In this document: positions 2,769-27,464 of the stretch, piece by piece
How positions within the stretch are numbered: position 1 is the stretch's first letter
How the letters are laid out: each line of letters begins with the position of its first letter
Source: a virus
Reading direction: 5' to 3' (one strand)
Virus record (IMG/VR): IMGVR_UViG_3300031565_000248
Coordinates: 1 to 29,533 of that record
Length of the DNA: 29,533 bases
Notes under the pieces: model-generated
The model's database searches: none
Seen by the model: the letters and a program-made list of their open reading frames with translations, nothing else
What the model was told of the DNA's origin: nothing
Translations under genes and position numbers: made by a program

Positions 2769-2790
2769 GGGAGTTTATCACTCCCTTTTT
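2769..2790 (+). terminator. Intrinsic terminator of the plus-strand moron operon
   Basis: Stem GGGAG (2769-2773) / CTCCC (2781-2785), 7-base loop, followed by TTTTT. It abuts the end of the convergent late operon (stop at 2789). No comparable T-run serves the minus strand here. Confidence 0.8.
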
Positions 2791-5700
2791 ATACTCCTAA
2801 AAACACCTGCATGAAATAAACGCAATTTATCCTGCCTAACTGCGTACTTGAAAGTTCTATGTAGTGCCAGCCAGCCGTAGTAATCCATGTTGATAAATCA
2901 AGATTGTCTTGGTCTGTTGTATATCCAGCGCCGCCATTATCAAGTCTTAATGTACCATCTACATAAACCTTTACACCTGTAGCTGATGTACTCTCATAGA
3001 TTCCATAGGTTATATCATGTGTATGGGCAGAAATGGTAACATCATGTGTGTGTTTACCAGATGCAATTTTTGAATAAATATTTGTACTACCACTAGATGA
3101 TTCCATGCCTACTTCCGCCCCAGCGCCACCAGATGCATCACCAGTTGTAAACCATCTTGTCGATTCGTTTGCGGCATGAACATTAACACTTCCTCCAGCG
3201 GCCTTTACAACAGAAACTATATCATTAATCGTACTGTTATATGTCATTATTAGATGGACGTGATCACCATTCTCTTCACTTGTAGGAGAGCTACTACCAC
3301 CGCTTGCCGCACCTGTTTCATAGGCTCTGAATGCCTCCAAAGAGAAGTTAAGCAATACTTTTTTGACCGATAGTGTTTCAGTAGGTATATAAAACTTTAT
3401 CTTTAGCTTATGTGTAGCGTCTACGTTATCTGCGTATGAATCGCCCCAAGATTGGATAATACCATCTTGGTCAAGTACAGTTGCATCCCCGGCAGCGTTT
3501 TTTATTTCTATACCATACTTATCAACCGCATAATTACCTATTTGTACTCTTTCGACCTCTGCCGCATCAAATACCTGAATTCCTCCTGCTGAAGTTATTT
3601 TGACCTTATTATAAAGGGTGTTCACTTGCACACTTGTATCAGCTAAAGCTTGTGCTGTATCAGCCAAATCCTTTGCCTTAGTAGCAATCGCATTGAGAAG
3701 CTTTGTCCGTTCATCATAGTAATTCTTCCAAGCAGTATCCCACGCTGACCTTGTAACATCTGTTGTGGTAGTCATATTGGCGAACACAGTCAAAGTTGTG
3801 TTTAGGTAAGTGTTCAATGCTGCATAATCAGTATCGAAGTCCGTATCGGCAACACCGAATGCGATTGCCTGTACTGGTATTGTGCCGGTAGCAGGAGTTC
3901 CTTCAACCACTATAGCATCCCATCTTTGCTTTGCTTCAAGCTTTTCAACAGGTGTTATTTTAGCATCAGAAGCTATATCAGACAAAGTATTCAAAGCTGT
4001 AGTTGCATCGCCTTGAGCATCCTCTGCGGCTCCTTGAGCTGTAGCTGCATCTGCTAGGGCTTGAGTAGCATCTCCCTGAGCATCGTCAGCCAAATCCTTT
4101 GCCTTAGTAGCAATCGCATTGAGAAGCTTTGTCCGTTCATCATAGTAATTCTTCCAAGCAGTATCCCACGCTGACCTTGTAACATCTGTTGTGGTAGTCA
4201 TATTGGCGAACACAGTCAAAGTTGTGTTTAGGTAAGTGTTCAATGCTGCATAATCAGTATCGAAGTCCGTATCGGCAACACCGAATGCGATTGCCTGTAC
4301 TGGTATTGTGCCGGTAGCAGGAGTTCCTTCAACCACTATAGCATCCCATCTTTGCTTTGCTTCAAGCTTTTCAACAGGTGTTATTTTAGCATCAGAAGCT
4401 ATATCAGACAAAGTATTCAAAGCTGTAGTTGCATCGCCTTGAGCATCCTCTGCGGCTCCTTGAGCTGTAGCTGCATCTGCTAGGGCTTGAGTAGCATCTG
4501 CTTGTGCCGCACTAGCTGCCGTATCGTCTGTGTACTTTGTAGCCAGTTCCCAATCGGCTGCATTATAAGCCCCTGTTAGCCTTTGGGTTTTACATTTCTT
4601 TAAATCAGCCGCCGTACCGCCCGCCCACAAATCACCCACATCATATGGGGTTGTAGGAGTGGTAGTAAACGTTCTTGCTGCTGTACCTTGCCCAATATTA
4701 GTACCAACCACAAGTGTCTCAATCTGTGCAACGCCTATCTTAGCAACCGCTGTGGTGATCTTATTCGCTTCCATGCTGGCTATTTTTGCATCCGTAACCG
4801 CCAAATCATCTATATGTGCGGTTAATACTGCAAGATCGGCTATAAAGGCAGATCCAATAAACTGTCTTGCAAGGCGGCTGTACCATGCAATATCGTGAAT
4901 GCCGCTATTGTTCACGGCAATTATAAAATCGGTATCCGCAAGGGTGATTGCCGAAAATTCTGCCTCTGTATATGCCTGATAAACAGTGGTACTTGTATCT
5001 TTCCTCCAGACGGTATACTTTTTGATTGTGTTTCCAGCCGCAATGGAATATTCCGCGCCGGCATAATATAGTTTATGGGCATTCCAGGCAACATAGCCAG
5101 CGCTTGGCGAATTGTCAGTCCAAGTATCACCTGTAAGAATAATTTGCTTTGTATTAAATTTTGTCGCATCTACAGCCGCACTAGCTATTTTAGCGGTAAT
5201 GACACTCTCGTCTACAAGGTGAAATGCGGATATTTGACTTTTTGATGTTGTTATCTTTTTTATAAAGTCCGTCACATCAAAGGATGATTTTAGACTGTCG
5301 ACGAATCTTTCAGAAAAGTCCCCAGCTTCAGTTTCGCAAATCCAAGGTTGAAAAAGATTATATTTGTGCCTTGTTACCCTTTCTTGAACATTTATTTCGG
5401 CATTGGCGCCTATAACATCTACGAATTCACCTAAGGAAAAATCTTCATGGTTATATTCCGGAAGGGTGCGCAGGTCAACCATTTTTGTTCGGTACGTATA
5501 CCGGGGTCTGCATATTTGGGCCAGATCAGTTGTAGCCTTATCCTTCAATTCCTGCGCATCGTATATATCCGGGTATTCCTTTACACCAACAAAAATAGTT
5601 GACGTGTATGTATCGTTAGTCAGGAACTTTACTCCATCATTGACAGAAGATATATCCAGGTTGTCAGCTCCAAAAGGGTACACCTTTGTCATCATTGAAT

Positions 5701-6391
5701 TATTTGCCGTTCTTGATATATGCTTAAGATTTTTTGCATACCTTATCTGGAAGCCTGAATAATCCTGCCAGACATTCCCGTCGCGGAGGCTGACGGTTTT
5801 ATTGACACTATCCCATACCAGTAGACCGCCCCAAACAGATTGGATCTCTTTTATGAGTTGGAACCTACTTTTCTTTTCCATTTCAATATCATGGGTACCG
5901 GTAACATCAACCGTGCCGATAGTCCATCCAGAGCCGTCCAAGGCAACAAAAAGTGCATGCTCTGCACTTCCAACAGCATACAAGCCGCCAGAAAGATCAG
6001 TGCCTCCAGAAATGATTATTACAGATAGATCGGCTGGAGTAGGATTCAACGGGTCGTTTGAAATGTAGGGTTCAATGAATTTAGTTTCCAGTTCTGCCCA
6101 ACGTTCAACCGCACGAAAAGAAGCCCACCGCTTTCCGGATTCGTCCATGACTATCTCGGAAGCCTCGTCTTTGAGTATGTTGTAAACTTTGTTGGTCGTC
6201 CAAATCTGGCATTCCGGAGTTAATATATCAATCTTGGATGAATTAGCAGGAAGTAAAAATTCCAACGTTGACTCGCCGTTCAGCCTGCAATCTACATAAG
6301 CATCTTTTAATTTATCTGATTTTGGCGATAAAAAAGCAGCTCTTATACCAGCTGCGGTTTTGACTTCTAAAAATTTTGGGATTGTTGCCAT
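2789..6391 (-). CDS. Tail endopeptidase / tail-tip and receptor-binding structural protein
   Basis: A 1200-residue protein with an AAGGAG site eight bases before ATG 6391. About 370 N-terminal residues resemble the tail-associated lysin/baseplate hub domain (prophage endopeptidase tail family): mixed-strand sequence with a conserved-looking 'YPFG' segment and a 'QERVTRHKY' stretch. An Ala/Thr/Asp-rich fibrous middle follows, containing a 414-bp perfect tandem duplication (residues about 632-769 and 774-911). Near 945-977 is the motif RVQIGNY...KYGIEIKN...TVLDQDG, and near 1110-1130 a His-rich [13 protein letters not shown] segment typical of fibre metal-binding regions. The C-terminus probably contacts the host surface. 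It is the last gene of the late operon and has an extra promoter/terminator element ahead of it. Confidence 0.8.
3660..4499. repeat. Perfect 414-bp direct duplication, period 426 bp
   Basis: Bases 3660-4073 and 4086-4499 appear identical by eye throughout, separated by 12 bases. The period of 426 bp equals 142 codons, so the tail-tip reading frame is kept. Identity including third codon positions indicates a recent or continuously homogenised duplication. Confidence 0.92.
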
Positions 6392-8216: not shown

Positions 8217-9116
8217 TCACCGTCCCTTTAATGCATTGTCCAACTGGTCTATTTTATCCTGTACATCGTTGATGTTTTGATGTGCGTATATTTGTGTTGT
8301 GGCAATACTGGCATGCCGTAGAACATTTTGTATTACATCCAAAGGCGCACCTTTTTTAAGCAGAGACATTGCGCGTCCATGTCTAAATATATGAGGATGA
8401 ACATTTTTAATTATGCCGGATCTCACTCCTGCGTTTTTTACGTAACATTGTATAGCTTTCTTACTCCACCTGTTATGCTGCCTAGAAAGAAATAAGGCAG
8501 GAATATCATCCTTTCTTGGAGCTAGATACTCCTTAATCTTCTCAGAAGCAAACTCAGAAAATATGCAAACTCCTTCTTTATCTCCTTTGCCTAAAACTTT
8601 AAACCGCCTCGTTGTGAAGTCTAACGATGCCTTATTTAATTGATAGAGCTCCGATAATCTGCACCCACTCGAAAAAAGTAAACTTGTCAATGCCAAACCT
8701 CTTTTATCACCTTTTACAAAATCATAAATCGCCTGTATTTCATCATCAGTAAGAAAATCCCTTATCTTTGTCCGTACTTTGATGGGGTCTACTTTGTCCA
8801 AGGGATTTTTCATATCAAGATACTCTTTTTTAATCATTGCTTTAAAAAATGAATTAAGAGCCACATATTTTCTGTCCAAAGCTGCATCACCATTTTTACG
8901 TTCTTTTGTACAATAATCAAAGAAATCTTCAATATCAATATGACTTGTTTGTTCTAGTGGTTTATCTTTAATATATCTTAAGTATAAAGGAATATCACCT
9001 TTGCAAAATGCCTCAATTGACCTGTCTGTCAAACCTTTATTTCTACATATAGTTTCATATCTAGAAAGATGTTTAAGGTTATCTTTGTTACATTCCTCTA
9101 ATTTACATAGTTCCAT
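8217..9116 (-). CDS. Tyrosine recombinase (XerC/D / phage integrase family)
   Basis: A 299-residue protein with AAGGAAGTGAG before ATG 9116. Residues about 25-105 form the SAM-like N-terminal core-binding domain. The catalytic domain shows R153 (SGCRLSEL), K177 (GKGDKE), H242-x-x-R245 (HIFRHGR), H268 (RHAS) and the nucleophile Y277 (QIYAH), a complete active set. Such enzymes integrate, excise or invert DNA at short core sites. Its location is unusual: it lies within the tail operon, same strand, six bases before the distal tail gene, instead of next to an attachment site. It could act on tail or fibre segments or be the prophage integrase relocated by rearrangement. The role is inference. 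Confidence 0.9.
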   Translation of the reverse strand: MELCKLEECNKDNLKHLSRYETICRNKGLTDRSIEAFCKGDIPLYLRYIKDKPLEQTSHIDIEDFFDYCTKERKNGDAALDRKYVALNSFFKAMIKKEYLDMKNPLDKVDPIKVRTKIRDFLTDDEIQAIYDFVKGDKRGLALTSLLFSSGCRLSELYQLNKASLDFTTRRFKVLGKGDKEGVCIFSEFASEKIKEYLAPRKDDIPALFLSRQHNRWSKKAIQCYVKNAGVRSGIIKNVHPHIFRHGRAMSLLKKGAPLDVIQNVLRHASIATTQIYAHQNINDVQDKIDQLDNALKGR

Positions 9117-13984: not shown

Positions 13985-16900
13985 CTAAACCATTGAAGTT
14001 AGCACCTTCTTAAGTTCTCTTGAAAGAATCGAAGCATCAACTTCATCTTCCATATGCATGTTTTCAACTTTCAATAAATTGTCGAATTTTACAGATTTCC
14101 GATTATCAGTAGAACTGTAAGAATCGCCGGCACGAGTTTTACCCGTAATCCCGGATGATACAGCAATAAGCGTCTTTAGGTCGGTCGACAAAGAAGGGGG
14201 GAATGTCAATTCTCCAGGCTTCATGTAAACAGCGCCATAGGAAAGGGTTTCGCCACCACTATGCATTTTAGGGAGTCTTTTTAAATATTCCTCGGTCTGC
14301 TTATAGTTCATATTGTGAAGCTGATCTGCGACTCCCGGAGAAAGCTTCTCAAGCTCATCATAATAGGCCTTTGCCCTGTCAGCAGCGCTTTTATCGCCAC
14401 CAATTTCATATTGTTTCTTCATCTCAAGGATGCTACTTGCATTCTGGTATGTTTGCATTTTTTCAATGGAAGCTTCAGCTTCTGTTGTGGCTTTGTTAAA
14501 GCCGGACACATCACCTTTTTTAAGAGCCTCCTGCATTGGAACGAGGTAATTGTCAACCCATTGCTGATATGCTTCTTTGGAGCTTGCGGCAGCCTTTGCA
14601 ACAATTTCAATATTGTGGGTATCAAACAAGCCTTCAAGGACTTTGTAACTATTTTCCCAGACTATTTTTTCTTCCTTAGCGGTTTCCTCTGCAATACGAA
14701 TTTTTTCTTGTGCAGCTTCTTTTTCATCATCAAGTTCTTGCTTCCTGAGTTCAATCTCACGGTCATGAGCGGATTCTGCAATGTCGTTATTAAGCTCGTA
14801 GATGGATTTATTATAGCTCGCAGTTTCTTCGGCTATTTGCTTGTCTATGTCTTCAATGGCTTTTCTATGTTCTTCGCCCGTTCTTAACTCATGATATTTT
14901 CTATTCTTTTGAAGTTCGGCCAGCTTTTTGTCATGCTCTTTATCAAGCTCAAGCCTTTTGTCATTGAGGTCATGCTGCTCGTTTTCGTAATCATGCTTAT
15001 CTTCATCACGGCTGAGACGTTTTTCCCTTTCTTCGATACGGCGAATTTCTTCTTCTTGAGTATCTTTAACCTTCTGCGCTACCCCTTCGATTTGGTCAAT
15101 GCGTTCATCGTAAGCATCTTTTAATGCGTCCTGCTGTTCTTTAAGCTTATCTTTGTAATCTTCTATATCTTTTTCCCTGAGTTCTTTTTGGAGTTTGTAG
15201 AGGTTGACCGTAGCTTCTTTGCGCGCTTCAATATTATCTTTCTGATTAGTCAATACCCTGTTCCATGCGGCTATTTCCTCATCTGCCGAGAGCTGATCAA
15301 GTGATTTTTTCTCATTAATCCAGTTGACTGAATCCTGGAGGCGTTTGTCCATCAGCCGTTTTTCAGCCGAATAAATGCGCTCAGCCATGTTCATACGTTC
15401 TTCAGGGGTTTTTGCATAGAGAGAGTTTATTTTGTTAAGGTCTGCGATTTCCTGTTTAATGGATTTTTGCGATTCCTTGGCCATGTTTTTTTCATGTTCA
15501 AGAAGACTTAATGCCTTTTGCAAGGCTTCGTTCTGCTTGCTGCCCGCTTTTCCCTTGTAGGTATCCAACCCTACGGTGCTATAAATATCAATCTCTTTTT
15601 TTAGAGCACCAATTTCATCAACTAAACCTTGAGCCTCTTTTAATTTCTCTAAGGCTACGCTAGTGTCAACTGTTGCCTTTTTTGAAAATTGGTCTAATGC
15701 TCCTGACCAAAAATCTAATTGGAAACCTTGATTAAAAAATTGACCTTTTGATTCAGCATCTTGTTTTTGTTTTAATAGAGTATCTATTTGAGATTGTGCA
15801 TAATCTCGTGTCTGTCCAGCTAATTCTTGCCGCTGATCAACTTTTGCCTGTTCAAGCTCCATTAGATTTACAATGCTTCGACCTTCCTTTTCGTTTACAT
15901 CTAAAGTCTTTAGCAGTGCATCTTTCTGAACTTCTAAACCTTTTTTAGTATCTTCAAGCTTTTTGATATGCCTATCTTTTTCAATTTGCCATAAATCTTC
16001 TAATGCTTGCTTGTTAAGCTTTATATGGCCGTTTTCAATAGTCATTGCATCAGCTAGCTGCGGATATGTTTCAAGTAAATTCATTGCAGTTTCAACACTA
16101 AGTTCATTATTTGAAGACATTTCCTCATAAGCAGAACTAAGCGATTTCGAAGCTGTTTCCAAATCATCAAAAGCTGTTTTAACTACTTGCCGCATCCCCT
16201 CGATGTTTGATGTAAAATCAGTAACGGCATTAGAATTGTTTAAGGTTGAACTATCGCCAAAAGCTGATTCAATTGCCAATGCAGCGCTTTCCAGTTCCGG
16301 ATGAAGTCTAATCAAGGCATCTGTAAACTTTTTAATCTCCGCCGCTGACCTGTCAACACCTGCTGTGTCACCTTTGAATTTAAAATTGTTATACCTTGCC
16401 ACGGCTTCATCGAAGTCTGAAGAATTCATTTGGTCAATGAAAACCTGCAATGCCTTTTTTTGCGTATCAATATTAACACCTTGACCACCGAGTGCATTTG
16501 CGAATTCAGAGATATACGCCTTTGCAGCATCGGACACTTTAGCGCCGTTGTCCTCAATCTGTTTGATGATGACTGTAGCATCATTTTGAAGCACTTGTTG
16601 ACGGTCCTTTGATAAATTCTGAATAGTGTCGTTAGTGTCTTTTGCATCGTTAACTAATTGTGCCAACAAATCCTTTGCTGATTGACCAGAAACGCCATGC
16701 ATACCCATATAGCCCCAATTCTGAAGCTTGCTTGAATAATACTTTCCGCCTTGATCAATCGCGGTTTGTAATTTAACTATTTCATCAGAATATGCATCTT
16801 TTGCATCAAGTTCAACGTGTAGCTTTTTAACATCTTCTGTATCTTTTGCCTGGACTGCAATTTCCAGTAGTTTTTGCTTTGCCGCTATTTCGTCCTCAAG

Positions 16901-18013
16901 AGCTTTTACTCTCAATTTAATTGCAACAACAGAATCTGAATAGGCTTTACCTTCGGAATTAATCCCAGTAATGGAAACTCCAAATGCATCAACCAATTCT
17001 TTTTGGACTTCAAGCAATCTTAACTTCTCATCTGCCGTAGCGGTTAAGGAATCCTGCTTTGCTTTTAAAGTTTCGTACTCCGACGAAAGTTCTTTTAAAC
17101 CATCCTTTTCATCAGAAAGTGACTGTATATTTTTTTTGGTATTTTCAACTAATAACTTTTGTTCTTCGTTGTACCTGCCTATGGCACCTACTAATACGGA
17201 TATCGCAGCTGCCGCTGCTGATATTACCAATAGCCACGTATTGACAGTCATAAAGGTCTTAGAGGCTGCGGTCGCAGTGTTTGTAGCAGCCGCTGTTGCC
17301 GTAGCAGCCGCTGCCATTTCTCCCATAGCACCTGCGGCTACTTTTGAAGCTACTGCTGTAGTTCCTGCTGTAATACCGAATAGTTTAAGGGCTTGCTGTC
17401 CTGTTTTCAAAACTACAAACATGGCAGTAAAGGCAAGAACTCCATCTTGAACTGGCTTAGGCAACTTTTCAACTACTTGAAGAACGCCTGTGCCAGCATC
17501 CACCATAAGTTTAAGAGTACCTGTCAGCCCTGAATCTCCCAACGATACTGCCAATTGCTGTGCGGCAGCCTGTAAGGATAAATATTTTTTTTCCAGCGTG
17601 TCCATTGTACGTTCATTTTCCGCAACAGAATATCCGGCTGCGTCTGTCATATTGTTTAAGACTTTTTGAGCTCCAGTTAATCTTTCAATCATGCCGATGA
17701 AGTAATTCCTGCGGTATACACCTGCTGCGGCCTGTGAAATGTCCCTCTGTTGCAAATCGTTCCATTGTTCTTGTGAGCCAATTGCAGCCGCCAATTCTTC
17801 ACTGTAAAGTCCTGCGTCATCTGCGGCTTTAACAAAACCATCCTGAATTTCAGGAGCCAACTGTCCCCATTTTGCAGCAACATCTGTAAATATGCCCATG
17901 ACATTACGGAATTGCGTCTTAGCTGCATCGGCAAATACTTGAATTCCTAACCCTTCAAATGTTTTGATTGCAACAGGTCGTTGCACATAGGAAAGAATTG
18001 AATTGAGAGCGTT
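13985..18013 (-). CDS. Tape measure protein, exon 2 (C-terminal 1342 residues)
   Basis: The second exon begins at 18013, directly after the group I intron, and is in frame with exon 1 (codons V-G | N-A-L-N-S-I-L-S-Y-V-Q-R-P). A GTG at 17986 is open but is only an internal Val codon. The exon has an Ala-rich membrane-like segment (about 200-260 residues in) with hydrophobic helices. Then come long helical parts and a very highly charged coiled coil (RIEEREKRLSRDEDKHDYEN... through KEEK), then a shorter globular end. This is typical of siphovirus tape measure proteins, which set tail length and pass into the host membrane. With exon 1 the spliced protein is 1644 residues, implying a tail of roughly 240 nm at about 1.5 angstrom per residue. 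Confidence 0.88.
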   Translation of the reverse strand, partial: NALNSILSYVQRPVAIKTFEGLGIQVFADAAKTQFRNVMGIFTDVAAKWGQLAPEIQDGFVKAADDAGLYSEELAAAIGSQEQWNDLQQRDISQAAAGVYRRNYFIGMIERLTGAQKVLNNMTDAAGYSVAENERTMDTLEKKYLSLQAAAQQLAVSLGDSGLTGTLKLMVDAGTGVLQVVEKLPKPVQDGVLAFTAMFVVLKTGQQALKLFGITAGTTAVASKVAAGAMGEMAAAATATAAATNTATAASKTFMTVNTWLLVISAAAAAISVLVGAIGRYNEEQKLLVENTKKNIQSLSDEKDGLKELSSEYETLKAKQDSLTATADEKLRLLEVQKELVDAFGVSITGINSEGKAYSDSVVAIKLRVKALEDEIAAKQKLLEIAVQAKDTEDVKKLHVELDAKDAYSDEIVKLQTAIDQGGKYYSSKLQNWGYMGMHGVSGQSAKDLLAQLVNDAKDTNDTIQNLSKDRQQVLQNDATVIIKQIEDNGAKVSDAAKAYISEFANALGGQGVNIDTQKKALQVFIDQMNSSDFDEAVARYNNFKFKGDTAGVDRSAAEIKKFTDALIRLHPELESAALAIESAFGDSSTLNNSNAVTDFTSNIEGMRQVVKTAFDDLETASKSLSSAYEEMSSNNELSVETAMNLLETYPQLADAMTIENGHIKLNKQALEDLWQIEKDRHIKKLEDTKKGLEVQKDALLKTLDVNEKEGRSIVNLMELEQAKVDQRQELAGQTRDYAQSQIDTLLKQKQDAESKGQFFNQGFQLDFWSGALDQFSKKATVDTSVALEKLKEAQGLVDEIGALKKEIDIYSTVGLDTYKGKAGSKQNEALQKALSLLEHEKNMAKESQKSIKQEIADLNKINSLYAKTPEERMNMAERIYSAEKRLMDKRLQDSVNWINEKKSLDQLSADEEIAAWNRVLTNQKDNIEARKEATVNLYKLQKELREKDIEDYKDKLKEQQDALKDAYDERIDQIEGVAQKVKDTQEEEIRRIEEREKRLSRDEDKHDYENEQHDLNDKRLELDKEHDKKLAELQKNRKYHELRTGEEHRKAIEDIDKQIAEETASYNKSIYELNNDIAESAHDREIELRKQELDDEKEAAQEKIRIAEETAKEEKIVWENSYKVLEGLFDTHNIEIVAKAAASSKEAYQQWVDNYLVPMQEALKKGDVSGFNKATTEAEASIEKMQTYQNASSILEMKKQYEIGGDKSAADRAKAYYDELEKLSPGVADQLHNMNYKQTEEYLKRLPKMHSGGETLSYGAVYMKPGELTFPPSLSTDLKTLIAVSSGITGKTRAGDSYSSTDNRKSVKFDNLLKVENMHMEDEVDASILSRELKKVLTSMV

Positions 18014-18921
18014 CAGTTTGTTACTCTGCTACGAATAGCAGGAGCAGGTCATTTCTGCCTGCTTCTGTGCATTCATTACTAGGTTATACGCACACGATCG
18101 GACTATCCCTTCGCCTTTACAGGCGTGCTTATTATAGAAATACTATATCCTTTTTCTTGTATTTTAATTCCAGTTTATAGTGCATACCTGGGAATTCTTT
18201 GACTATAGGAGCAACTATCCCTAAGAGCTTTATAGTGTTTTCTGTGTTACACCACAATCTAGGGTGTCCTTTGTCTGATGTTATTCCAAATTTTAAGCCG
18301 AACTTGTTTAGCAGCATTTCCTTAAACAATCCCGCTTCTTCCCAAGTAAATCCATGAGTGCAAAGATAGGCGTTTCTTGCATTTATGGTATCACTGCCCT
18401 TTTTATTTTTTAAGCTCAAAGAGCCATCATCCATATAAAAAAAGGCCAGTGAAATTTCATTAAATCTATTAAGCAAGGTTTTTGTAATAACTTTTTTTCT
18501 TTTTTTGTATATGAGGTTGTATAGATAACTTAATTTTTTACTATTATAATAAGCATAGCGAGCTATATATCCTTGTTTGTCGGTAAAAGTTCTTAATGTT
18601 GTTGGTTTAATGTACGCTTTTAAAAACTTCACTTTTTCATCTACATATGTTAATTGCTTTCCGCCATGCCTAATATATAGTGTATTTTGGTTATTCATAC
18701 TTCCATCGCCTAAAATCATGCCTAACAAGGCACTGTTAAACTGGTGTTTTGATTTGGCTAGACGCATAAAGCATCCACTCCCTATATAAGATATAAGTAT
18801 TTTAATAGTCTCTGCACCTTCCGCATTAAGCGGCTTGGCTCACGATTGTCCACCTCTGGACTTTTCCTGAATTTAAAGCAAGTTTTCCTGCAAGATTGCT
18901 CTTGCAGGGGGCAACATGTTT
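18014..18921 (-). ncRNA. Group I intron (908 nt) in the tape measure gene
   Basis: Minus-strand core elements appear in order: P2 hairpin CCTGCAAG/CTTGCAGG just inside the 5' end; P-like AATTCAGGAAA (about 18862-18872); P5 GTCC...GGAC; Q-like AATCGTGAGCCAAG (about 18832-18845); R GGTGCAGAGACTA (18806-18818); then the LAGLIDADG ORF; and S AAGGGATAGTCC (about 18101-18112). P7 pairs GACTA with TAGTC. The 5' exon ends in U, which pairs with G of the guide GCCCCC (P1), and the adjacent GUU pairs with the first three bases AAC of the 3' exon (P10). The intron ends in G. Excision restores the tape measure frame exactly (exon 1 906 nt, exon 2 4029 nt). Confidence 0.9.
18132..18767 (-). CDS. LAGLIDADG homing endonuclease encoded in the group I intron
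   Basis: A 211-residue protein with GGGAGTGG upstream of ATG 18767. Two LAGLIDADG motifs are present, LLGMILGDG (residues 14-22) and LAFFYMDDG (107-115), so a monomeric two-motif enzyme is expected. The two acidic residues (D21 and D114 or nearby) would coordinate the catalytic metals. Such enzymes cut intronless alleles at the exon junction and promote intron homing. It lies between the R and S core elements, i.e. in the peripheral P8 region, the usual site for intron ORFs. Both motifs are intact and there is no frameshift, so it may be active. Confidence 0.92.
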   Translation of the reverse strand: MRLAKSKHQFNSALLGMILGDGSMNNQNTLYIRHGGKQLTYVDEKVKFLKAYIKPTTLRTFTDKQGYIARYAYYNSKKLSYLYNLIYKKRKKVITKTLLNRFNEISLAFFYMDDGSLSLKNKKGSDTINARNAYLCTHGFTWEEAGLFKEMLLNKFGLKFGITSDKGHPRLWCNTENTIKLLGIVAPIVKEFPGMHYKLELKYKKKDIVFL

Positions 18922-19827
18922 ACCCACCTCTCTACCAGTCCTTCCTGAAGCCTCCTTCATTACAGTTAGCAATGAAATAGTTTGCTCAAGAGACATGCCC
19001 ATTATTCTTGCGGCACCTGATGAACGGAGAAGTCCATCCACTAAATCCTGAGATTCGACAACAAAATCATCTGCGGTTTTGTTAATTTTATCCAGGACTA
19101 GGGGCAAATCTCCGGCTGTTAGTCCCCACTGAGACATTATGCCGACAAAAGCTTTTGTCGAAGTGGCTGCGTCCAATTCTGCTGTATTTAAAGCAAGCAG
19201 GGAAGTCTTAGTTAGTTCAATGCTATCACGAACATTATAGCCTGCCTGTGCCCATCTGAGGGTTATATCCTGAACCTTGTCAAACGTCTGTCCGTAATCT
19301 ACGCCAAGACCAAGCAAATTGTCACGAAAGTCATTGAATACGAAGTTAGTATCTTCCATGACACGGGCAATCTCGGTAACGCCCATTTCAACATCGGAAA
19401 TCGTTTTAGTGGCTGCTTTTGCACCATTAATAAGACCAAAAAAAAGCGATCCACTGAGAAACCACTCCGCGCGCCTTTGAAAACCACTTGCAAATATATT
19501 ATTAGGGTCATCTTTGATTTTGCTATTATTAAATTGATCGACTACTTTTTTTACCGACGTGGTGGTTTTTGTGGCTTCGGTTTGAATAGTTTTTAGAGGT
19601 TGGCCAAATTGATTTAAAATAGTAGTGCCAGCACCCATGCTACCTAACTGAGAAGAAAACGACTGATTAATATCTCTGGCCCCTGCAATAGCATTCATTT
19701 TCATTTGAGACAATTGAAGATTTAAACTAGCAACTCTGCCTTCAAAAGATTTAATTGCTAATTCTGCAGGGTTAAAATTTAACCCAAGAGTTTCCATGAT
19801 TTTTACCATCGAGGTATCGTCCAACAA
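18922..19827 (-). CDS. Tape measure protein, exon 1 (N-terminal 302 residues)
   Basis: Starts at TTG 19827 with AGGTGA five bases upstream, inside the end of the preceding endonuclease gene. Exon 1 ends at 18922 after the Gly codon of REVG. Unspliced translation would continue 31 residues into the intron and stop at 18826. The sequence has the tape measure N-terminal pattern: a helical start, then I-S-D-V-E-M-G-V-T-E-I-A-R-V-M, Q-T-F-D-K-V-Q-D-I-T-L-R-W-A-Q-A-G-Y, and E-A-S-G-R-T-G-R-E-V-G immediately before the splice site. The latter is a highly conserved segment of phage tail tape measure (TP901-type) proteins. Introns often choose such conserved sites. Confidence 0.88.
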
Positions 19828-19832
19828 TTAGA

Positions 19833-20945
19833 TCACCTGCCTTTTCCTGGATTGACTATACCTACTTCTTTTAAGCGACTATTAACATGAGTTTCATTTA
19901 AAGGTTCATCAAATCTAAACCTTAATAACTTAAGCCCGTTTTTTGGTATTAACTCATTTTTTAAGGTATCGTGAAATTGTACTCTTTCCAATCCCTTCTC
20001 AGGGTCTTGATTTGGGAGAAATTGTATTGGCTTAAAATGTGCCTCTCCATCAAACTCAACGCATAGTTTGTGTTCTGGATAGAAAACATCCACCCTCAGA
20101 TGATAGTTTGTTATGGGAGACCTTAGCCAATCAAATCGCTTTTCCCTTTTGAATTCGGGAAACCCCAAAACTTTGTTAAAAAAAGAAATGCATTCATATT
20201 CCCAAGCTCTCCATTTTTCAAGGCTTTTGCCAAAAACCTTCTTTTGCCAAAATGGAATTCCGCCTCTCAAACCATAAGTCATTGAGCTGGGACACAACCC
20301 TTCTTTACAAAATTTGTCAAGGTCTCTAGCGGAAGGTATCCTGCCTATTTTTTTACCTAAACTTCTTAGCATTTCCTCCATCTGAGCATCTGTATATTTT
20401 TCACCATGTGTTTCATGCCAGTCTTTTGTTGATATGCCGTGCTTTTTCAGCCACAAGGCAACCATTGTAGGTGATGTCCCTAATTCCTCTGCAATTTCAG
20501 GCATGTTCCTGTTTTCAGTTATATACCTCTGGTATAGCCAGTTTTTGCTTCTGAGTTTTTTAAGTCCAGGAGTTTTCTCCAACATTCTTTTCTCAAAAGT
20601 TTTCATCTCTACCCCTGCCTCACTTAATCTGCAGCATATGGCATGAATGCTACAAGACATTTTTGCGGCTATTTCCTTACAGGTAAGTTCTTGTTCGGCA
20701 TAAAGGTTCTTAATATATTCATGGTCATTAATTAGTCTGATATTTTTGTTATCAGGCATCCGGGATTCTCTTATGTTTCTAGTAGCAATATTATGGATTG
20801 TAAGCCATCTTTTCACGGTAGTATCGCGCACCTTAAGCTCTTTAGAAATGTTGTTTGCACTTCTCTTTTTGACTACATATTGTTCATTTAGCCAGTCTTT
20901 GTTTTCTAATAAGCTATAGGCATCTGAGACACAACCTTTGCTCAT
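19833..20945 (-). CDS. Free-standing homing endonuclease: three HTH modules plus VSR/EDxHD-like nuclease
   Basis: A 370-residue protein with GGTGAT before ATG 20945. Residues about 18-50, 76-108 and 136-170 are three helix-turn-helix modules of the same kind (W-L-x-x-x-Y...N-I-S-K-E-L/EIAAKM/EIAEEL...V-x-x-W-L). Residues about 270-345 are a VSR-like nuclease: RVDVFYP (284-290), C-V-E-F-D-G-E-A-H (295-303), H325-D326 and L-L-R-F (340-343). This matches the EDxHD homing endonuclease class and related phage proteins. It is inserted between the tail chaperone and tape measure genes with only 19 and 5 bases of spacing, so it is transcribed with the late operon. It probably cleaves phage genomes lacking it near this position; the target is unknown. 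Confidence 0.85.
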   Translation of the reverse strand: MSKGCVSDAYSLLENKDWLNEQYVVKKRSANNISKELKVRDTTVKRWLTIHNIATRNIRESRMPDNKNIRLINDHEYIKNLYAEQELTCKEIAAKMSCSIHAICCRLSEAGVEMKTFEKRMLEKTPGLKKLRSKNWLYQRYITENRNMPEIAEELGTSPTMVALWLKKHGISTKDWHETHGEKYTDAQMEEMLRSLGKKIGRIPSARDLDKFCKEGLCPSSMTYGLRGGIPFWQKKVFGKSLEKWRAWEYECISFFNKVLGFPEFKREKRFDWLRSPITNYHLRVDVFYPEHKLCVEFDGEAHFKPIQFLPNQDPEKGLERVQFHDTLKNELIPKNGLKLLRFRFDEPLNETHVNSRLKEVGIVNPGKGR

Positions 20946-24495: not shown

Positions 24496-24921
24496 TTAAT
24501 GATGATGATGGTGATGATGAGATGGGGAAGAAATGCTGAAATGAGAAAAGGATGAGATGGTAACGGTACTTATATTCCCGATATATCCATCCCTCTCTGT
24601 CTCAAAATCAGCCTTCTTTTGCGTCCAATCAATACTAAGTTCATGAGTTTCGCTGGGTCCCTGCTGACGTACTGGCAACCGTGCAGGCATGGAGATGGAC
24701 AATAAGCTTGCGCACTCACAAACCACGGCAGCTTCCAGATAAATTAAATCATCATCTGTCAAGCTGGCGTAATCGGGCACTTGCTTTATTATATTTGCCT
24801 CTGCCACGGAAACAACCTCTGGTTGACCTATTGATGCATCAGAGAGATAAGGCTCTAAAACGCCCATTTTGGAACGAATTCGAGCCTCCCATCCTACAAC
24901 GGTCAAAATCCTGTTACTCAT
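24496..24921 (-). CDS. Head-tail connector (gp6-like) with a natural C-terminal His7 tail
   Basis: A 141-residue protein. ATG 24921 overlaps the endonuclease stop by ATGA, and its ribosome binding site lies in the endonuclease 3' end. The helical body (ASLTDDDLIYLEAAVVCECASLLSISMPARLPVRQQGPS...WTQKKADFETERDGYI) resembles gp6/gp15-like connectors that sit under the portal. The final residues are Ser-Pro-Ser followed by seven histidines, preceded by a Ser/Phe/His-rich linker. This His tract is unusual for the family. Confidence 0.7.
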   Translation of the reverse strand: MSNRILTVVGWEARIRSKMGVLEPYLSDASIGQPEVVSVAEANIIKQVPDYASLTDDDLIYLEAAVVCECASLLSISMPARLPVRQQGPSETHELSIDWTQKKADFETERDGYIGNISTVTISSFSHFSISSPSHHHHHHH

Positions 24922-26081
24922 ATAATCACCTCGCTGGACTTATTTCTGGACTCGAACAGAATTCCCAGTCCGGACAAATTTTGCTCAAGTATTTGGTGTA
25001 ACTTTCTAAACTGCCGATACGATATTCTAACAAGAGGTATATTGCGTTCTTGACAATACATTGTTTTGATATTGTCGTTAATCTTTAATCGAAAAAATGC
25101 CTTTTCTCCACCAAATGCCTTTACTGGTTTAAAATGCTGCACACCATCAAACTCAATTAATGCAATAAGAAATTTATCCTTAAAAACTCCAAAATCAAAA
25201 GGTAACGGAAATATGTTTTTGCAATCATTAATCTTATATCCCATGACAAAATCAATTCCTTTTGATTCTAAATATTTCCTTATAAGTTTTTCTCCTATGC
25301 TTTTTGATGAATTTGCGCAATATGGGCATCTATTCCCGCTTAAAAACATTGATGGAGTTACTTCGTAAACTTGCCCACAATCAGAATGCATCATTTCGAT
25401 TTTTATGTCATTTTTCTCATATCGACCAATTACTTGATATTCATCTGCCTCTAAAGCATAAACTCTTTCTACAAATTCGCCTTGAGACATTGTGCGCTTT
25501 TCCCCGTTGAGCCGATACATGCATTTAGGGCATCTTGTACCTTTCAGAAACCACATCGGGCTTGCATTCCATTCATGTCCGCATGTGTTATGTCTCATTT
25601 TTATAGGGATATTATTTTTGCGATATTGCCCTAAAACCGAATATTCATCTCCAGCCAACTCAAGTACTTGGCTTGTGAATTGTTCGGTTGTCCGTGCATG
25701 TTTTCTGCCATATTCAGTATATTTACATTTTGGACAGCCATGTCCAGCAAGAAGACTATGAGGAGTTTTGTATATTTCTCTTCCGCATACGTTATGCCTC
25801 ATTTTAATATTTGCTTGTGCTTTAATATACGGTTCAAGAATTGTAAATTCATCCCCATAGAGCGATTTTACTTCTTGCAGAAACTGTTCGTTGGTCTTTA
25901 AACCAGCAGGAGGCAAAGGGATTCTATTCGCCTTACGAATTGCTGACTTTTCTCTGCTTATTAGTTTCCTACAATTCTTACAGACCGATGTGAGACCATA
26001 TTTTCCGGTCTTTTGCTTGCTAAAATATTCATTGGTAGCCGGATATTCATTATTACATCCCGTGCAAATCTTATAATTCAT
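24918..26081 (-). CDS. Free-standing homing endonuclease: zinc modules plus VSR/EDxHD-like nuclease
   Basis: A 387-residue protein with GAGGTGATG before ATG 26081. An N-terminal zinc ribbon (C6-x2-C9...C34-x2-C37) is followed by three repeats of about 68 residues ending in MRHxxCG...PxxxLxGxxCPxC (zinc pairs near C99/C116-C119, C167/C184-C187, C235/C252-C255). The C-terminal nuclease has F-D-F-G-V-F (295-300), I-E-F-D-G-V-Q-H (309-316) and a basic helix with N-D-N-I-K (335-339). It shares EFDGxxHFKP with the endonuclease at 19833..20945. It lies between the capsid and connector genes and has its own promoter. Related proteins are seen as free-standing phage homing endonucleases; activity is inferred. 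Confidence 0.82.
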   Translation of the reverse strand: MNYKICTGCNNEYPATNEYFSKQKTGKYGLTSVCKNCRKLISREKSAIRKANRIPLPPAGLKTNEQFLQEVKSLYGDEFTILEPYIKAQANIKMRHNVCGREIYKTPHSLLAGHGCPKCKYTEYGRKHARTTEQFTSQVLELAGDEYSVLGQYRKNNIPIKMRHNTCGHEWNASPMWFLKGTRCPKCMYRLNGEKRTMSQGEFVERVYALEADEYQVIGRYEKNDIKIEMMHSDCGQVYEVTPSMFLSGNRCPYCANSSKSIGEKLIRKYLESKGIDFVMGYKINDCKNIFPLPFDFGVFKDKFLIALIEFDGVQHFKPVKAFGGEKAFFRLKINDNIKTMYCQERNIPLVRISYRQFRKLHQILEQNLSGLGILFESRNKSSEVII

Positions 26082-26099
26082 ATCATCACCTCAGTAATA

Positions 26100-26128
26100 A
26101 TTGTACCATAAATTACATGTAAGTACAA
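26100..26128 (-). promoter_or_regulatory. Promoter of the zinc-module endonuclease
   Basis: Minus-strand TTGTAC (26123-26128), 17-base spacer, TACAAT (26100-26105), 19 bases before ATG 26081. The spacer holds the perfect palindrome TTACATGTAA (26113-26122). TTGTAC and GTACAA also form an inverted repeat around it. Confidence 0.7.
26113..26122. promoter_or_regulatory. Palindromic operator candidate between divergent promoters
   Basis: TTACATGTAA is a 10-bp perfect palindrome lying inside the endonuclease promoter and 11 bases upstream of the -35 of the divergent ribbon-helix-helix gene. It is a plausible binding site for that protein, a repressor-type fold. Confidence 0.5.
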
Positions 26129-26132
26129 GCAC

Positions 26133-26161
26133 TTTACATCAATGCCTTGTTGTTGTATTAT
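26133..26161 (+). promoter_or_regulatory. Promoter of the ribbon-helix-helix gene
   Basis: TTTACA (26133-26138), 17-base spacer, TATTAT (26156-26161), 22 bases before ATG 26184, with a GGGAGG ribosome binding site between. Confidence 0.65.
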
Positions 26162-26183
26162 TAATGCAAAGGGAGGTAATTCC

Positions 26184-26357
26184 ATGGATGATAAGAAATT
26201 GCGCTTAAAAAACAGAACACCGCTTTCCAATGCCATAGAAAACAAATTATTTATTAGTCTGCAAAAACTTTCAAAAACTACGCGCATACCGATTTCAAGG
26301 CTACTCGATGAAGCTGTAGAGGACTTACTTAGCAAATATGACGTAAAGGGGATTTAA
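26184..26357 (+). CDS. Ribbon-helix-helix protein, divergent from the endonuclease
   Basis: A 57-residue protein. The frame is open from 26142, but GGGAGG sits eight bases before ATG 26184. After a basic tail the sequence NRTPLSNAIENKLFISLQKLSKTTRIPISRLLDEAVEDLLSKY has the strand-helix-helix pattern of the RHH_3-type small DNA-binding proteins. It is the only plus-strand gene inside the phage structural region and runs antisense to the late operon, with its own promoter and hairpin terminator. The shared intergenic palindrome suggests that it represses itself and the neighbouring endonuclease. Together they may be a mobile pair. Confidence 0.8.
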   Translation: MDDKKLRLKNRTPLSNAIENKLFISLQKLSKTTRIPISRLLDEAVEDLLSKYDVKGI

Positions 26358-26368
26358 CCCCTTATTTG
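26346..26368 (+). terminator. Hairpin at the convergent ends of the RHH and capsid genes
   Basis: Stem AAGGGG (26346-26351) / CCCCTT (26358-26363) with loop ATTTAA, then ATTTG. The RHH stop codon lies in the loop region. The T-run is weak on both strands, so it may act bidirectionally at low efficiency. Confidence 0.5.
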
Positions 26369-26378
26369 TAGAAATTTG

Positions 26379-27464
26379 TCAATTTATTTCAAGCACAGCC
26401 GACGCTTCCTGCATGATCTTGTTGAAACCAGCATTCTCGGAGATCGTCAGAACTTCCGTCTGATTCAATATGAATCTTCCTGCCTCTTGCACTTCCGAGC
26501 CGATTTCAGTGACCTTCTCAATTGCGTACCTTGAGTCAAGTCCATAAATGGCAGCATGGGCATTGAGAGCTTCAACCTGAGGCTCATAGAGTAGGGTGAA
26601 TTCAGAGAATATGCCCTGAGGCATTTGAACCTTGGCCGGCAATGCCATTCCACCGATGAGCAATGCAACAAGATGGGATGCAGTAGCAGCGGGGAAGAGC
26701 ACATTTAATATCTGCAATAAACCAGCTTCGTTGGCAACCATAGTATTGCATTTGTATGGGAAGAACTTCAGCAAGAATGAAATCAACGCGTTCTGAGAAA
26801 GGGTCCCTGAAGATGCGGAGGTATCAAGAGTAGTGTTTTTATACTGAGTTGCGGCATTGTCATTTCCGTCGCCATCCAAGATTACATCCAGGATATCCAG
26901 AACTTCATCACAACTTGCCTGCTGCCCGATCCTTCTGATATGAAGTGCCAGCAAATCAATTTTCATCCTGCGGATAACTTCATAGGATGACTCGATTGCG
27001 TTACCAAACTTGTATATTTTGGTTGTGTTCTCAGCAGTAACAAGCCTGGATTTTGGAAGGTCTGTGGCTTCTACAACTCTTTTTCTCTTTGCAGCCTTCG
27101 TATTTGCAGTAGTATTTTTACAGTAAATTGTCCTATAGGCATTTCCCTCAATAGGAGTAGTCATGCCGACAAGATATCGTATAATACTGTCTGCAATCAG
27201 ACTTTCTCTTAGTGTTGCACCAACAAATTCAGGGAAAAGGACTTTGCTTTCATCAGTCCTATAAAACGCATCGACCTTTGAAGCGTTAATTCCCTTTTCC
27301 GGAATAGTTTTTGTCACTATACCGTGTTCTTTAAATTGTCTTTCCAAAGCCGATAATGTCGAAACTTCACTATTTGGGTCAAGTCTATCGAGCAGTTGAG
27401 TAAATGTTATGCCCTCTTTTTTTGCCTGGTCATACATTTCTCTTGCTAATGCAATTTTACCCAT
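26379..27464 (-). CDS. Major capsid protein (HK97 fold)
   Basis: A 361-residue protein with AAAGGATGTG before ATG 27464. The N-terminal 50-60 residues are helical and charged (LAREMYDQAKKEGITFTQLLDRL). The central part has the HK97-type features: L-F-P-E-F-V-G-A-T-L-R-E near residue 78, a long spine helix (SSYEVIRRMKIDLLALHIRRIGQQASCDEVLDILDVILDGDG) and a strand-rich C-terminus (PQVEALNAHAAIYGLDSRYAIEKVTEIGSEVQEAGRFI). Its place after the protease and decoration genes and before the connector genes supports the call. About 415 subunits would form the usual T=7 shell if the capsid is standard. Confidence 0.82.
   Translation of the reverse strand: MGKIALAREMYDQAKKEGITFTQLLDRLDPNSEVSTLSALERQFKEHGIVTKTIPEKGINASKVDAFYRTDESKVLFPEFVGATLRESLIADSIIRYLVGMTTPIEGNAYRTIYCKNTTANTKAAKRKRVVEATDLPKSRLVTAENTTKIYKFGNAIESSYEVIRRMKIDLLALHIRRIGQQASCDEVLDILDVILDGDGNDNAATQYKNTTLDTSASSGTLSQNALISFLLKFFPYKCNTMVANEAGLLQILNVLFPAATASHLVALLIGGMALPAKVQMPQGIFSEFTLLYEPQVEALNAHAAIYGLDSRYAIEKVTEIGSEVQEAGRFILNQTEVLTISENAGFNKIMQEASAVLEIN

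Follow-up and report, generated by a model that had tools for sequence, protein, structure and literature searches.

The window analysed here is a 29,533-nucleotide stretch of viral DNA, positions 1 to 29,533 of IMG/VR record IMGVR_UViG_3300031565_000248. A second record, IMGVR_3300031539_008576, was 100% identical to the window across the shared DNA compared and reaches past the window. An endonuclease gene and a ribbon-helix-helix (RHH) gene, which diverge from an intergenic region of 102 bp, separate a capsid gene from a small gene at the connector position. The features of this locus are as follows.

24496-24921, minus strand: small gene in the connector position (assigned by position alone)
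24918-26081, minus strand: EDxHD (VSR-like) free-standing homing endonuclease, 387 aa (phrog_559, E 1e-80; DUF4379, 2.2e-5; alignments; AlphaFold model)
24922-26378, no strand: cassette as inserted, 1457 bp, from capsid stop to connector start (empty site in 11 of 13 related contigs)
26084-26092, minus strand: endonuclease ribosome-binding site GAGGTGATG (sequence)
26100-26128, minus strand: endonuclease promoter with -35 TTGTAC (26123-26128), 17-bp spacer and extended -10 TGG-TACAAT (26100-26105) (sequence; same architecture in about 40 other cassettes)
26113-26122, no strand: putative RHH operator TTACATGTAA (palindrome wholly inside the endonuclease -35/-10 spacer; operators at the same position elsewhere track RHH type)
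26133-26161, plus strand: RHH promoter TTTACA-17-TATTAT, 10 of 12 consensus matches (promoter scan)
26170-26177, plus strand: RHH ribosome-binding site AGGGAGGT (sequence)
26184-26357, plus strand: RHH protein (RHH_3, Arc/CopG-type), 57 aa, antisense to the structural operon (PF12651, E 5.9e-16; phrog_3180 Arc-like repressor)
26346-26363, no strand: hairpin AAGGGG-ATTTAA-CCCCTT over the RHH stop codon (sequence)
26379-27464, minus strand: capsid gene (PF25209, phrog_3922)

The positions and strands given to the endonuclease and RHH genes in the initial annotation were borne out. Its naming of the flanking genes held for the capsid, while the "connector" (24496-24921) had no family match in the domain and phrog profile search and keeps that name from its position only. 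The C-terminus of the connector-position protein (window 24496-24530) carries seven histidines (SPSHHHHHHH), and its relatives are without the His tail.

The endonuclease gene starts at the ATG at 26081 and its stop codon overlaps the ATG of the connector-position gene. The N-terminus of the protein consists of zinc-ribbon-type repeats and the nuclease domain is C-terminal. Residues E264, D296, E310, H316, D336 and K339 were invariant across 25 aligned relatives, as expected for an EDxHD (VSR-like) homing endonuclease, and the protein has the catalytic E, D, x, H and D residues expected in the VSR-like fold of that group. Its AlphaFold model, built from an alignment restricted to proteins of the window and of viral contigs, had a pLDDT of 83 and a weak Foldseek match to 3r3p, the I-Bth0305I catalytic domain (prob 0.89, E 0.19, TMt 0.59); sequence searches of the PDB gave no useful match.

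The RHH gene was assigned the ATG at 26184, preceded by AGGGAGGT, as an upstream ATG at 26142 falls within the promoter and so is not the true start. The 57-aa product has both the sequence match and the strand-helix-helix layout of RHH_3/Arc-CopG proteins. Its model contained helices at residues 14-33 and 37-53 and gave weak Foldseek matches to ORF56, CopG and Arc, with the strand not formed in the monomer. The hairpin at 26346-26363 is probably a bidirectional terminator and is similar to the GGGGG(N4)CCCC hairpin of the empty sites described below.

The two promoters are located back to back with their -35 boxes separated by 4 bp. Divergent sigma-A promoters a few bases apart had been proposed, and the spacing stood and the promoter calls were supported by the comparative footprint, whereas the promoter scan did not rise above chance and the endonuclease -35 was weak. 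The scan of 24.5-27 kb returned three promoter-like sites versus 6.9 in shuffles, so that the promoter predictions taken by themselves do not exceed chance and support comes from the comparative footprint; the scan was rejected as sole evidence. The endonuclease promoter was missed by the scanner because its -35 matches only three of six positions. A 10-bp palindrome reported beforehand in this promoter was found again as TTACATGTAA within the -35/-10 spacer, and it occurs once in the window (0.03 expected). The chance of any 10-bp palindrome within 102 bp is about 1 in 10 by a rough estimate, for which reason the palindrome was also rejected as sole evidence.

Other features of the window are recorded here. 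A LAGLIDADG-like open reading frame (18132-18767) lies between tape-measure-like reading frames at 18826-19827 and 13985-17986, an arrangement that resembles a gene interrupted by an intron or intein; no group I intron reached the gathering threshold in Rfam. Just upstream of the tape measure, 19833-20945 encodes a second EDxHD-like endonuclease with helix-turn-helix repeats (phrog_8446/7545) and no RHH partner. A tyrosine-recombinase-like gene (8217-9116) sits among tail genes, a position that would suit switching of tail fibres better than integration of the phage. In a 1200-aa tail protein (2789-6391), a segment of about 150 residues is repeated in tandem, the two copies being almost identical.

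Insertion at the capsid-connector junction

Of the 13 related phage contigs, 11 had an empty capsid-connector junction of 13-20 bp and two had a filled one, with RHH and EDxHD genes in the window and with RHH and HNH genes in L009/L103. Examples of empty sites included L003, from the same metagenome and about 81% identical in nucleotide sequence, and L101. Both genes were missing together from the empty sites of the 11 relatives and the pair recurs in other phages, in agreement with the earlier suggestion that it moves as a unit. The endonuclease is free-standing in that it has its own open reading frame, no intron or intein, and a present/absent polymorphism at one intergenic site (11 empty, two filled). 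Empty sites often carried a GGGGGTAATCCCC hairpin. At L101:5575-5612 and other empty sites the gap is this hairpin and contains the connector ribosome-binding site, so initiation on the connector gene may require ribosomes coming off the capsid gene.

The other filled junction, on the 22 kb contig L009/L103, has 1129 bp in the gap with an RHH gene divergent from an HNH endonuclease, and in both filled junctions the nuclease reading frame extends into the start codon of the connector gene. Their RHH proteins share 64% identity and were not sisters in the tree, which is weak at 57 aa, so that independent entry of each cassette is more likely than a single entry followed by a nuclease swap; same-site RHH alleles grouping as sisters with the nuclease exchanged were unsupported. 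Residues 1-42 of the window connector were 52% identical to L003 and the remainder 84%. This drop is compatible with a co-conversion tract from exchange near the insertion, yet it is not specific and was not taken as evidence of one.

The phage carries a second cassette shortly beyond the window. It follows the portal gene on contig 008576, where an RHH gene (L002 2555-2713, minus strand) diverges from a LAGLIDADG gene (2817-3782, plus strand) and TTACGTAA precedes the extended -10 TGATACAAT in the intergenic region. An RHH and LAGLIDADG pair occupied the corresponding portal-protease junction of L029, and in nine other relatives this junction was only about 110-600 bp, leaving no room for a cassette.

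RHH relatives beside mobile nucleases

An alignment of RHH proteins only was used as bait against viral contigs and bacterial genomes, so the resulting sample of 66 dereplicated loci was not selected on neighbours. The divergent neighbour was a nuclease or mobility gene in about 50 of the 66 loci. Approximately 46 were recognized by Pfam and inspection as an HNH, GIY-YIG, LAGLIDADG or EDxHD endonuclease, TnpB, Y1 transposase or serine recombinase, and four more (L021, L052, L054, L058) had divergent units with GIY-YIG or HNH sequences that the gene caller overlooked. This count includes L064, L065 and L093 as HNH-like by eye; L064 and L093 were scanned with Pfam and gave no informative match. 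Pfam assignments among the divergent neighbours (n=65) comprised 11 TnpB, 10-13 HNH, 6 GIY-YIG, 3 LAGLIDADG, 3 DUF4379 and 2 Y1_Tnp, and the convergent-side neighbours were capsid, portal and other ordinary genes. Similarity to cassette nucleases was found for 39 of 51 divergent genes versus at most 11 of 317 others (Fisher p ~6e-32), a contrast that is if anything understated since several of the 11 were mis-tagged divergent genes. The gap between the RHH and nuclease genes had a median of 95.5 bp (range 87-148, with 40 of 44 within 85-120 bp). RHH clades mixed nuclease classes, and about a quarter of the RHH relatives had no nuclease partner.

The pairing of an RHH gene with an EDxHD endonuclease, sought in other phages as the initial annotation had advised, was present in L020, L111, L132, L161 and several phages of Streptococcus thermophilus, and the RHH gene is therefore not missing beside every homologue of the endonuclease, the outcome that would have spoken against the proposal. 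Moineauvirus CHPC873, P7573, P8922 and P7601 have the order TerS, reverse RHH, EDxHD endonuclease and TerL, of which YMC-2011 has a shortened copy. In other S. thermophilus phages the RHH partner was an HNH gene, intact in Brussowvirus 93 and CHPC1042 and carrying an in-frame deletion in SW1151; CHPC1248 has an HNH remnant and no RHH gene was found there. In the reverse survey, which took in 79 viral loci encoding an endonuclease of the window family, only three (L111, L132, L161) had a directly divergent RHH-like gene, these belonging to other RHH subfamilies and being recognized by eye rather than by profile in L132 and L161. Coupling as a property of all homologues of the endonuclease was thus rejected. 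The repressor would be an optional, repeatedly acquired part and, since most endonucleases of this family have no RHH neighbour, one not required for homing.

Three further contexts of RHH_3 sequences were observed. L096:2692-3129, from a Lachnospiraceae MAG, encodes a single 145-aa protein in which a GIY-YIG domain is fused to RHH_3. In Bacillus-type genomes (L077, L085, L086, L087, L091) a DLKTRTRIGN-type RHH_3 gene lies 13-35 bp ahead of a codirectional gene of 615-625 aa, a context distinct from the nuclease pairs. In Clostridium-type genomes (L079, L080, L094, L095) RHH genes of the same type are beside short, apparently decayed IS200/IS605 TnpA and TnpB genes.

Operator types and predicted repression

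Aligned intergenic regions shared a common layout of RHH ribosome-binding site and -10, a TTGCAA-like box usable as -35 in either direction, a palindrome, and the nuclease extended -10. The palindromes differed with RHH type. GLKNRTPISN proteins were associated with AACTACAAGTAGTT at loci including EDxHD, HNH, GIY-YIG and LAGLIDADG endonucleases, NKDLK...TPISN proteins with TCCTTGCAAGTCCTTGGAC (TnpB, HNH), VVPNS proteins with TGTCAATTGACGGTCA (TnpB, HNH) and RIGN proteins with CTTATAGCAACTTATAG. The operator of the window cassette is unlike the commoner classes. Operator similarity followed RHH similarity across 667 pairs of different nuclease classes (Mantel r 0.40), with none of 2000 permutations as high (best 0.27), and nuclease class had no effect on operator similarity (0.557 versus 0.545). 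Palindrome content was 5.46 of 7 compared with 4.27 in shuffles (largest shuffle 4.56). Within RHH groups, the -35 to -10 block was 85-92% identical and the flanks 41-68% in three of the four groups; in the fourth (VVPNS) the RHH-side flank (0.86) was about as conserved as the operator block (0.89). Some of the correlation may stem from co-inheritance, not recognition, given that the operator adjoins the RHH gene. Taken together, these comparisons strongly support a putative operator, matched to the RHH type, within the endonuclease promoter.

The space between the -35 and -10 boxes is a standard position for a repressor, and Arc and CopG, which are RHH proteins of similar length, act at such sites as dimeric repressors. 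From this combination it is concluded that the RHH protein is likely to repress the nuclease and, as the promoters are back to back, probably to limit its own transcription as well. RHH dimers would bind the palindrome and block RNA polymerase at the endonuclease promoter. Upon entry into a cell or genome free of repressor, a short burst of nuclease would cut the empty capsid-connector site and the cassette would be copied in; the nuclease would then be silenced as RHH protein accumulates, which would spare the host phage DNA damage and remove a strong promoter from the structural operon. The RHH-operator unit appears portable and could serve EDxHD, HNH, GIY-YIG and LAGLIDADG endonucleases as well as TnpB/IS200-IS605 genes. 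The original proposal that the nuclease is kept silent in the lysogen was too narrow: S. thermophilus phages of the Brussowvirus and Moineauvirus groups, which are mostly virulent, have cassettes too, and the lysogen is one case only.

The RHH protein could instead serve mainly the host phage by insulating the structural operon from the cassette promoter, with nuclease silencing secondary. The location of cassettes inside late structural operons, the hairpin at the RHH end and the survival of the SW1151 RHH gene despite the deletion reducing its HNH partner fit this explanation. It is nevertheless unlikely, as RHH units are also found beside TnpB and in bacterial genomes with no late operon to protect, CHPC1248 kept its HNH remnant without an RHH gene, and the operator is located in the nuclease promoter. 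Antitoxins often have RHH folds and a nuclease is potentially toxic, which would suit a pair of the type II toxin-antitoxin kind in which the RHH protein would inactivate the nuclease by binding to it. Such antitoxins are tailed and co-transcribed with the toxin, however, whereas the RHH proteins here (46-58 aa) stop just past the second helix without a toxin-binding tail, the genes are divergent rather than in one operon, and the same RHH clades are paired with several unrelated nuclease folds, making this very improbable. Slightly less credible still is an RHH protein that aids targeting as a DNA-binding partner, or regulates another gene, rather than repressing the nuclease. The GIY-YIG fusion in L096 and the codirectional Bacillus genes are in its favour, but the divergent geometry is constant and the palindromes of the nuclease promoter, which look like operators, correspond to the type of RHH protein. 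Chance insertion of a homing endonuclease beside an unrelated small regulator, to which the 3 of 79 in the reverse survey might point, has practically no standing against nuclease neighbours in about 50 of 66 loci from RHH-only searches (p 6e-32) at constant spacing and empty sites lacking both genes together.

EDxHD, HNH, GIY-YIG, LAGLIDADG and TnpB elements have a small set of operator types in common, so that, if the RHH protein does repress its nuclease neighbour, a resident repressor might silence a newcomer of the same group. It is conceivable, although we hold this only tentatively, that unrelated selfish nucleases fall into immunity groups defined by their RHH-operator units, a situation that can be likened to the superinfection immunity conferred by prophage repressors.

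Comparison with known systems

Most descriptions present free-standing homing endonucleases as unregulated or as dependent on promoters of the host phage. No paper on RHH proteins paired with homing endonucleases or IS200/IS605 TnpB was found in a search largely confined to the open-access literature, and within that scope the earlier statement that the cassette has no standard description was upheld. The occurrence of the same RHH switch beside five unrelated kinds of mobile nuclease suggests a common and apparently undescribed mode of control. If this is correct, four endonuclease superfamilies and the RNA-guided TnpB have solved the problem of being active on arrival and quiet later with one exchangeable part. 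A role would thereby be found for numerous RHH genes now labelled hypothetical or "Arc-like repressor", small nuclease-linked switches with several distinct operators would become available, and the cost of unregulated homing would be directly testable in cultured S. thermophilus phages.

The window endonuclease resembles the EDxHD enzymes I-Bth0305I and phrog_559 ("HNH endonuclease") in nuclease family and in the conserved acidic and histidine residues; no RHH partner was reported for described EDxHD homing endonucleases in the papers found. The C proteins of restriction-modification systems are also small DNA-binding proteins, which delay or limit a nuclease on entry into a new cell. These are HTH proteins that usually activate the endonuclease gene while a methyltransferase protects, whereas there is no methyltransferase here.

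I-TevI of phage T4 represses its own promoter via an overlapping operator, and seven T4 free-standing endonucleases have been described as apparently promoterless cassettes (PMC2988022). The window is alike in that a homing endonuclease promoter is predicted to be blocked by a protein on an overlapping operator. In I-TevI, however, the intron-encoded endonuclease is itself the repressor, whereas a separate dedicated gene is present here.

The closest described parallel is found in type V-K CRISPR-associated transposons. There, the Arc-like RHH proteins Arc_1 and Arc_2, of 53-72 aa, are encoded divergently upstream of cas12k and were proposed as repressors, CvkR (MerR-type) being the characterised repressor of these elements (PMC9938897). 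Both arrangements place a small RHH gene divergent from a nuclease gene on a mobile element, cas12k being TnpB-derived. No cas12k or Tn7 genes were seen among the window open reading frames, and the window protein does not belong with these regulators since its partner is a homing endonuclease and it is RHH_3 rather than RHH_5. Arc_1 and Arc_2 are of the PHA01623/cl10310 and RHH_5 families on Tn7-like transposons, whereas the RHH_3 genes described here are found in free-standing homing endonuclease cassettes and with IS200/IS605-type genes across Bacillota and phages.
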